The notes under the pieces are model-generated. The model did no database searches. It had not been told where the DNA came from and worked only from the letters and a program-made list of their open reading frames with translations. Made by a program: the position numbers and the translations under genes. A stretch of DNA of 64,000 nt from Terriglobia bacterium (GTDB lineage: Bacteria > Acidobacteriota > Terriglobia > Terriglobales > Acidobacteriaceae), in the NCBI GenBank assembly GCA_020072585.1, contig JAIQGL010000004.1, positions 1-64,000 on the forward strand, in the 5' to 3' direction. Of the stretch, positions 3,916-5,430 are shown piece by piece; the stretch's first letter is position 1; each line of letters starts with the position of its first letter.

Positions 3916-4782
3916 CTACTTCAGCCCCTTGGCCGCGGCCAGCATCTCGTCTGCTTTGGCGCGGATTCGGATGTCTTCCGCGAAGTTCGTCCAGCGCACC
4001 ACGCCGCTCGAATCCACCAGAAACTCCGCTGGGCGCGCAATGTCACTGCCCTCGGGCCCGCCGCCTTTGTGCAGCAGGTTGTACCGGCGGATGGTTTCAG
4101 TCTTTGGATCGGAAAGAATTGGAAATGTATAGCCGGCCTTGCTGGCCAGATTGCGCGAGACCTCCGGCGCGTCCACGCTGATGGCCACCGGCCGCACGCC
4201 TGCCGCTTCAAACTCCTTCAGGTTTTTCTGTACACCCCGTAACTCGAGGTTGCAGAACGGTCACCAATAGCCACGATAGAAAATCAGCAACACGGCCTTG
4301 GGCGCGGCCGAGGCAGAGACGTTGGCAGGCGATCCTGCGGCATTCGGGCCCATGGCAAGCGCTGCTCCGTCGCCTTTCCCCAGCAGCTGCGCCAGTGACA
4401 CGGGAGCGCCGTTGGTATCGGCCAGCGCAAAGGCCGGAACCTTCTGGCCTACCTGCGGCGCTGCGCCCGCGGCAGGCAGATCACGCGAGTGGATGGAGGC
4501 AACCCCGGCCAGCGCGCAGATGAGCAGCGAAAGCACGCCCAGAATCGGACTGGAAATCTTGCCGCCATACACCTGCGGTTGCCGGAACGCGCGCATCACT
4601 CCAACTACGGCACAGACCAGTGCGGCGATCGCCAATACCAGGCTCGCCATCGGGATCAGCTTGTCGCCGGGAAGCCCGAGAAAGAATCCGGCATTGGAAA
4701 ACAGGGCGGCCAGAGCAAGCAGCAATCCAGCCCAGGGCGCCCAGTTGCGTTGGCGTGGCGTCAGTTCCGTCATTTCTGGCAT
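3916..4782 (-). CDS. Membrane-anchored peroxiredoxin-like selenoprotein (in-frame UGA = Sec)
   Basis: Read through one UGA, this is a single 288-residue frame. Residues 13-35, 42-63 and 76-97 are three hydrophobic membrane segments. An AhpC/TSA-type thioredoxin-fold domain starts near 106 (QVGQKVPAFALADTNG). The catalytic loop reads FYRGYW-U174-PFC177, where family members have FYRGxWCPFC. Behind the UGA the same frame continues with the rest of the fold (RPVAISVDAPE, FPILSDP, PAEFLVDSSG) to a normal stop. A SECIS-like hairpin follows the UGA at 4226-4257. Sec therefore replaces the peroxidatic Cys, and C177 would resolve it. A nonsense mutation is the alternative. Standard gene calling would split this into a 173-residue and a 93-residue piece. 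The selA/B/C/D genes are not in the window. Confidence 0.82.
4226..4257 (-). promoter_or_regulatory. Bacterial SECIS-like hairpin
   Basis: On the minus-strand mRNA, starting three bases after the UGA: an outer stem UUCUG/CAGAA (4257-4253 with 4230-4226), a small internal loop (CA / GUA), an inner stem ACCUCG/CGGGGU (4250-4245 with 4239-4234, one G-U pair) and the apical loop AGUUA (4244-4240). The UGA-to-loop distance is 16 bases and a G is among the first two loop bases. Both agree with the published bacterial SECIS consensus as I remember it (16-37 bases, early loop G). Confidence 0.75.
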
Positions 4783-4843: not shown

Positions 4844-5350
4844 TTACGGTTTTTCGTTCCACGCTCTCATCCTGGGCCACCAGCGTCTCACGTGTTTGCA
4901 ATAGTTGCTGTATTCGCTGCCGAATTTGCCGCGCAGTGTTGGCTCTTCATAGAGCAGCACAAACAAGTGGAATCCCACCACAACGGCCAAGCCATACTGC
5001 AACACCTGAACGCTGCCGAAGAATAGTCCCTGGCCAAAGACCATCGCTGAAACCGCCACGTACATGGGATTGCGCACATAGCGATACAGTCCGCTGACCA
5101 CCAGATGCCGCGGCGGCGCAACGGGAGCCGGCGTTCCCAAGCCCTGAATCGCAAAGCGGGCAAAGGAATCCAGCAGGAGCGGCAGGCCAGTGACGATCAG
5201 GACCGCGCCAACCACGCGGATGGCGCTCCAGCCAAGCAGCGGCGGCGCCATATGCCATTGGCAAATCCAGTACGGCATGAGCACGGCAATGGTTCCCGGC
5301 GCAATCACCAGGAAAACGGCGGATCCAAGGATGGCGGCTGAGCGGTTCAT
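4844..5350 (-). CDS. Isoprenylcysteine methyltransferase-like membrane protein
   Basis: 168 residues with four or five hydrophobic segments. The C-terminal half has the ICMT/PEMT-type signature: LVVSGLYRYVRNPMYVA (R-x-P/N-P-M-Y), then E-E-P near a short segment and Y-x-x-Y-C-K-x-V-R-R-W. Such proteins are S-adenosylmethionine-dependent methyltransferases, or uncharacterised relatives in bacteria; the substrate cannot be told. The ATG at 5350 is preferred over an in-frame TTG at 5374. It is transcribed in the same direction as the selenoprotein gene, 61 bases upstream of it, so cotranscription is possible. Confidence 0.75.
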   Translation of the reverse strand: MNRSAAILGSAVFLVIAPGTIAVLMPYWICQWHMAPPLLGWSAIRVVGAVLIVTGLPLLLDSFARFAIQGLGTPAPVAPPRHLVVSGLYRYVRNPMYVAVSAMVFGQGLFFGSVQVLQYGLAVVVGFHLFVLLYEEPTLRGKFGSEYSNYCKHVRRWWPRMRAWNEKP

Positions 5351-5430
5351 GGAAAGAAAGCTTGTCCCACGCAAACGCAGGCAGAAGAAGAATATTCCTC
5401 AGGGTGGAATTTTCAAGATGCATAAATTGA

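Follow-up and report, generated by a model that had tools for sequence, protein, structure and literature searches.

Selenoproteins of the peroxiredoxin-like (Prx-like) thiol:disulfide oxidoreductase type, with the domain PF00578 and a UxxC or UxxU motif, are predicted with high confidence in Table 1 of PMC13188914. Among the GOS sequences, the family 'Prx-like 1' comprises 225 Sec sequences and 2,740 Cys homologues, and Prx-like selenoproteins fused to other domains are reported in the same paper (PMC2398784). A 'Redoxin family protein' with a UxxC motif (HEU0032618.1, PF08534; MBA3499694.1) appears in PMC13188914 and in PMC9312934, and the latter, a review from 2022, describes selenoprotein metagenomics outside the ocean as very rare. 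Selenoproteins of Acidobacteria have been counted since 2006 (three families, four proteins; PMC1794560), and three selenoprotein genes are reported for Occallatibacter riparius (PMC12013277).

We identified a predicted gene of this general type in the window, by which we mean the whole 64,000-nucleotide stretch of Terriglobia DNA that was analysed. Its product shares the PF00578 domain and the UxxC motif with the Prx-like selenoproteins, and shares PF08534 and the motif with the 'Redoxin family protein'; the two may belong to the same family. The product also has a three-helix transmembrane (TM) anchor that goes unmentioned in the portions of PMC13188914 and PMC2398784 consulted. In GOS Prx-like 1 the Cys homologues outnumber the Sec forms, whereas the relatives examined here include no Cys form of the three-TM protein. 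The literature searched, which consisted of titles and abstract openings and lay mostly outside subscription journals, holds no description of a three-TM Prx-like selenoprotein. Prx-like UxxC selenoproteins are already known, and what is new among them is the three-TM, apparently Sec-only clade; judged from the sequences, we find the apparent novelty in an architecture with three TM helices, in a set of examined relatives that contains no Cys form, and in the spread over phyla.

The whole predicted gene occupies positions 3916 to 4782 on the minus strand and has 288 codons when UGA is read as Sec, an extent it shares with full-length relatives. The frame starts with the ATG at 4782-4780, ends with the TAG at 3918-3916 and contains a single internal stop, the TGA at 4263-4261, which is codon 174. 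The two open reading frame pieces on either side of this TGA lie in the same reading frame, as the initial annotation had supposed in describing one protein split only by a UGA. The motif around position 174 of the joined product is FYRGYWUPFC, and the Pfam matches to the joined protein, AhpC-TSA (PF00578, E 4.9e-29) and Redoxin (PF08534, E 1.4e-18), both cross the TGA. The apparently broken gene is most likely one membrane-anchored redox protein with an active-site selenocysteine. Our fuller reading, to which we give a probability of about 0.6, is that of one 288-residue selenoprotein, decoded through a SECIS hairpin, whose peroxiredoxin fold is held on the periplasmic side by three TM helices and works as a UxxC thiol:disulfide oxidoreductase. 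Gene-calling programs that halt at UGA would report the gene in two pieces or cut it short, and would miss a protein that apparently lacks a selenium-free form.

Between the window protein and its closest relative found (L021, 76% identity), codons +12 to +111 after the UGA gave a dN of 0.056 and a dS of 0.613 (dN/dS ∼0.09), so the part downstream of the UGA is under purifying selection as protein. A family-wide pN/pS of 0.42 was obtained for 600 random pairs over codons +12 to +52, where pS was 0.72 and near saturation, and only the close pair was therefore used as evidence of selection. The TGA does break the frame, as it would in a pseudogene or through a sequencing error that left a real stop. 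This reading is contradicted by the purifying selection past the UGA and by the conservation of the TGA, the same codon being present at 80/80 loci (the best 80 of 279 relatives) on separate contigs; the conserved hairpin described below also stands against it. The L021 locus (G081:C17:23394-24263) contains an extra TAA just ahead of its first membrane helix, so its true start would lie downstream of the TAA, or the TAA would be an assembly error.

Conservation of the UGA (Sec174, 4261-4263, minus strand) was followed in three search sets that overlap. In 200 genomes of the order, near-full-length matches were defined as those that start at or before residue 47 and reach at least residue 269. 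Among the matches listed there are 13 of these, the window and 12 relatives with 43-76% identity, each with a single TGA (L021 also has its TAA near the N-terminus), and the motif FYRGYWU occurs in all 13. W173, U174 and C177 are invariant in the 12 near-full-length matches that were aligned; the alignment omits L028, whose motif with U was read separately. Matches outside the 13 include other partial matches, redox-domain-only TGA homologues and two partial matches in one genome (G109:C135:543-1001 and G109:C125:2904-3182) that look like decayed copies, the C135 match having four stops inside (three TGA and one TAA). The second search was run with two peptide patterns from which the Sec codon is absent, and was blind to codon 174. 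In the best 80 of the 279 relatives it recovered, TGA followed by xxC was found at 80/80 loci; the codon was read automatically at 79 of these and by eye, as TGA, at L100. In a third search, of 396 genomes of the phylum, 19/19 strong matches (E 1e-45), the window included, have exactly one internal TGA, a count made irrespective of its position.

No Cys form of the three-TM protein was found among the order matches listed, the best 80 of 279 relatives or the 19 phylum matches. Cys occupies the aligned site in more distant, redox-domain-only relatives (L043, L044, L045, L047 and L048). The codon is accordingly conserved as UGA or Cys in relatives, the pattern used to recognise a bacterial selenoprotein, and close relatives lacking both, which would have spoken against the initial annotation, did not appear in the sets examined. 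The lack of any Cys form in these sets makes the family well suited to asking why certain proteins retain Sec.

The frame would also be open if UGA were read as Trp, or were subject to general read-through, since TGA could then stand for any residue. We reject this reading: TGA serves as the final stop of 28 of the 80 genes themselves (the window and 79 loci of the best 80 of 279). A single gene can thus use UGA in both senses, and the code is not simply changed. Aligned relatives carry Cys and not Trp at the site, and the Sec genes are present. TGA also ends 10 of the 37 ATG frames of at least 250 amino acids in the window, counted as frames and not as confirmed genes.

In the minimum free energy fold of positions 4270-4205, a stem begins at the fourth base past the UGA and an apical loop, AGUUA, follows after 16 bases, with G as its second base. 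This is the geometry given in the initial annotation, and it fits the pattern of a bacterial SECIS, a hairpin close behind the UGA with a G among the first two bases of the loop. The conserved apical hairpin starts at the 12th base after the UGA (4235-4249, minus strand) and consists of five pairs, 4249-4245 with 4239-4235, closing the loop at 4244-4240; a possible lower helix (4226-4257, minus strand; 4257-4253 with 4230-4226) is weakly conserved. Folded alone, the window hairpin is not significant (z −0.60; 50/200 shuffles fold at least as well), and single-sequence folding was set aside as a way to prove a SECIS. Of the 80 rows folded singly, 66 satisfy a simple SECIS filter and 14 do not. 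A search of Rfam gave no match to a SECIS family, the sole Rfam match being a snoRNA on the opposite strand (E 2.2).

We aligned the UGA and the following 45 bases, gapless, from 80 sequences (the window and 79 loci of the best 80 of 279, L100 omitted). RNAalifold found the five-pair stem, columns 15-19 with 25-29, and it can form in 80/80 sequences. Compensatory changes occur in two of the five pairs. Among the 79 distinct rows, columns 16 and 28 hold U-A in 39, C-G in 22 and U-G in 18, and columns 17 and 27 hold C-G in 57, U-A in 20 and U-G in 2. When a sixth, weaker pair is included, 93.5% of cells in the upper helix are paired, against 31-56% when the helix is shifted by 1 to 3 columns and 64.3% for the lower helix. 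The covariation score of the stem was reached by 0/500 shuffles, and the observed number of doubly changed pairs by 36/500. Across the hairpin, the choice among synonymous codons is fixed. Leu at +7 is encoded by TTR in 77/77 rows with Leu (179/986 elsewhere in the same genes), Glu at +6 by GAG in 80/80 (288/512 elsewhere) and Arg at +8 by CGG or CGA in 80/80 (240/791 elsewhere), while Asn at +4 is AAC in 72/72 and Ser at +5 is TCC in 58/58. The UGA at 80/80 loci (best 80 of 279), the five pairs in 80/80 sequences and the strong codon constraint together place the hairpin beyond chance.

An AGUU apical loop also occurs in redox-domain-only Sec homologues of the order, where it sits on unrelated stems; it was present at 9 of the 12 TGA loci looked at. 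The loop lies at +16 in L036, L040, L041, L042 and L049 (L042 and L049 being identical in the sequence printed) and at +25 in L033, L037, L038 and L039. AGUU looks like a lineage-typical SECIS loop.

The source genome (6.9 Mb, 74 contigs, 96.8% complete) encodes all four of selA, selB, selC and selD, the set sought in a genome with a bacterial selenoprotein, and the absence of which the initial annotation had named as grounds for giving up its claim. The selA and selB matches score 543 and 385 bits, and the tRNA-Sec (selC), with anticodon TCA, scores 73.9 bits; the second match above the cut-off of the tRNA search is a tRNA-Ser. The selD match (371.5 bits) has one in-frame TGA of its own, and SelD of this genome is probably a selenoprotein too. 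This selD locus (L018, G000:C72:81590-82516) has a hairpin after its likeliest TGA (KAAGUASK) with a different loop from that of the gene described here. SelB exceeds its cut-off in 86/200 genomes of the order and in 13/13 genomes with a near-full-length copy of the gene, the window's included, a co-occurrence with a chance of 9.9e-6 by a hypergeometric calculation that treats genomes as independent, which kin are not. A tRNA-Sec was detected at E 1e-12 in 16 of the 21 genomes searched; it was absent at this threshold from the 590-contig assembly of a congener, G187, which is one of the 13 and in which both the gene and SelB are present.

Architecture and active site were examined in a 77-row alignment, made of the window and relatives from the best 80 of 279 (minus L061, L097, L099 and L100) with the TGA read as C. 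An AlphaFold2 (AF2) model built from the 77 sequences reached a pLDDT of 91.7 and a pTM of 0.86. The model and hydropathy place TM helix 1 at residues 15-35 (4678-4740), helix 2 at residues 43-67 (4582-4656) and helix 3 at residues 77-99 (4486-4554), all on the minus strand, followed by the peroxiredoxin-like (AhpC-TSA/Redoxin) domain at residues 110-285 (3928-4455, minus strand), which is supported by the Pfam matches and by Foldseek. The best PDB matches in Foldseek were the peroxiredoxins Bcp4, BcpB and AhpE (TM by target ∼0.9), and all 50 structure matches listed were peroxiredoxin-type. On the predicted model the protein has a peroxiredoxin fold, which agrees with the earlier suggestion that the frame downstream of the UGA keeps a peroxiredoxin-like fold. 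The three membrane segments joined to a Sec centre, also pointed out earlier as unusual, are likewise present; they are not peculiar to this genome, as hydropathy gives exactly three segments before the U in 66/80 rows and two to four in 78/80.

The loop between TM2 and TM3 has a mean net charge of +4.1 and is positive in 77/77 rows, and the N-terminus has a mean of +1.5 and is positive in 61/77. The other segments give a less clear signal: the short loop joining TM1 to TM2 averages +0.47, close to neutral, and the stretch past TM3 is slightly positive (+0.97; 58/77 rows). By the positive-inside rule, the TM2-TM3 and N-terminal charges indicate an N-in orientation with the redox domain outside the cytoplasm; from charge alone, the domain most likely faces the periplasm. 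Besides anchoring the domain, the three helices may have a further role, such as bringing membrane electrons to Sec.

The initial annotation had placed the UGA at the peroxidatic Cys and proposed an alignment with AhpC/TSA homologues as a check. That assignment had to be revised. In profile alignments with peroxiredoxins of known structure, Sec174 occupies the place of the Thr/Ser in T/SxxC, three residues ahead of the peroxidatic position, and it is Cys177 (4252-4254, minus strand), the UxxC partner of Sec174, that aligns with the peroxidatic Cys. Arg170 (4273-4275, minus strand) stands at the Pro of PxxxT/SxxC and Pro251 (4030-4032, minus strand) at the catalytic Arg of peroxiredoxins. R170, U174, C177 and P251 are each invariant in 77/77 rows, so the PxxxT/SxxC motif and catalytic Arg of a typical peroxiredoxin are both lacking. 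We found no other conserved Cys in the family, the next best Cys occurring in 29/77 rows. By the fold, the position of Pro251 is also that of the cis-Pro of thioredoxins, and a UxxC pair combined with Pro is a thioredoxin/ResA-type arrangement. The UxxC site suggests that the protein is a thiol:disulfide oxidoreductase and not a peroxidase; the cis-Pro-like placing of Pro251 and the anchoring in the membrane favour this reading as well.

The same selenoprotein could instead be a membrane-bound peroxidase, with Sec174 reducing hydroperoxides and Cys177 resolving, as in GPx-type enzymes, where Sec occupies the first motif position and reduces hydroperoxides. We consider this less likely. The fold is that of a peroxiredoxin (AF2, Foldseek), 77/77 members match AhpC-TSA and the thioredoxin-dependent thiol peroxidase model (E ≤ 0.001 for the latter), and among solved structures the leading sequence matches are peroxiredoxins and not ResA, which counts against the oxidoreductase reading. 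The hallmark residues of peroxiredoxins are, however, invariantly replaced (Pro by R170, Thr/Ser by Sec174, Arg by Pro251), and UxxC with Pro is the thioredoxin/ResA arrangement. If the protein is an oxidoreductase, its combination of a peroxiredoxin fold with UxxC separates fold from peroxidase function.

For the window protein, no NCBIfam model reaches its cut-off. The best NCBIfam match is to the SelL-related model (NF040769, E 8.4e-12), which is also matched by 77/77 members at E ≤ 0.001; the window protein scores 45.1 bits against a cut-off of 120. SelL has two Sec in UxxU, whereas the window protein has one Sec in UxxC and a three-TM anchor. With ResA/TlpA it shares a CxxC-type site and a membrane anchor. 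ResA structures were matched (best E 2.1e-15), as was the ResA model by 77/77 members (E ≤ 0.001, best E 1.7e-18), but the ResA/TlpA score of 44.7 bits falls below the cut-off of 170. The window protein differs in having Sec for the first Cys, a fold nearer to peroxiredoxins and three TM helices; ResA has one. Bcp/PrxQ and AhpE resemble it in overall fold (TM by target ∼0.9; best profile E 1.9e-24) and differ in their T/SxxC and catalytic Arg, neither of which it has, its Sec lying three residues before the peroxidatic position.

In the mechanism we propose for the oxidoreductase, SelB and Sec-tRNA would read the UGA at 4263-4261 as selenocysteine, as the machinery and hairpin in the sequence imply, with decoding directed by the AGUUR-loop hairpin that begins at the 12th base after the UGA. 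The three N-terminal helices would tether the peroxiredoxin-fold domain on the side of the membrane that the charges suggest, the periplasmic side. Sec174 would then attack a disulfide in the substrate, or sulfur in some other oxidised form, Cys177 would resolve the mixed selenenylsulfide, and a membrane reductant could recycle the UxxC pair, for example the CcdA/DsbD_TM protein encoded in the genome (65 bits).

Alternatively, neither disulfide nor peroxide reduction may be the main work of Sec174 and Cys177, which might instead move electrons or thiols for one specific task through the anchor, such as metalloid handling or the maturation of cytochrome c or copper sites. The matches of 77/77 members to ResA, of 18 to 32 members to DsbE, MauD or StoA models and of 2 members to SCO1 (all E ≤ 0.001) are in keeping with such a role, as is the CcdA-type protein. 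We nevertheless regard it as improbable, given that no operon partner of this kind was recognised nearby (neighbouring ORFs were clustered, not annotated) and that the family has no conserved third Cys.

By submitters' titles, the 77-row tree contains 58 Acidobacteriota, 16 Verrucomicrobiota (among them Candidatus Udaeobacter), one Binatota and one Myxococcota row in addition to the window. With midpoint rooting, Verrucomicrobiota rows lie amid Acidobacteriota and neither phylum forms one side of a branch, in a tree whose root is arbitrary and whose rows may be mislabelled by MAG binning. The window falls inside a starred set of 19 rows, the rest of which are Acidobacteriota. Transfer may have occurred. 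Phyla such as Acidobacteriota and Verrucomicrobiota are common in soil, and the gene suggests that such bacteria have redox chemistry in their cell envelope that depends on selenium. We propose, tentatively and at somewhat less than even odds, that these genes form a Sec-only, three-TM, periplasmic UxxC family of Acidobacteriota and Verrucomicrobiota, with the single Binatota and Myxococcota rows, that is not clearly recognised in the inventories consulted and shares its AGUU SECIS loop with Sec homologues on unrelated stems.

Of the eight neighbours in the window only an FtsX-type permease recurs, at 5/80 loci (many loci hold partial flanks), and gene context therefore names no partner. Immediately upstream, likewise on the minus strand (4844-5374), is a gene whose product resembles a small membrane methyltransferase; it has no counterpart beside any of the 80 related genes. 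A promoter and terminator scan gave one promoter-like site ahead of this upstream gene and one terminator-like site within it, and neither site adjoins the selenoprotein gene. The commonest separate neighbour families of the relatives occur at 13/80 and 11/80 loci. At the 13 loci (L086 4808-5794 and similar) one family is encoded downstream on the same strand, its frame lying 355-544 bases after the UGA in the 12 distances given, and a GTPase-like family recurs on the opposite strand in 11 loci.
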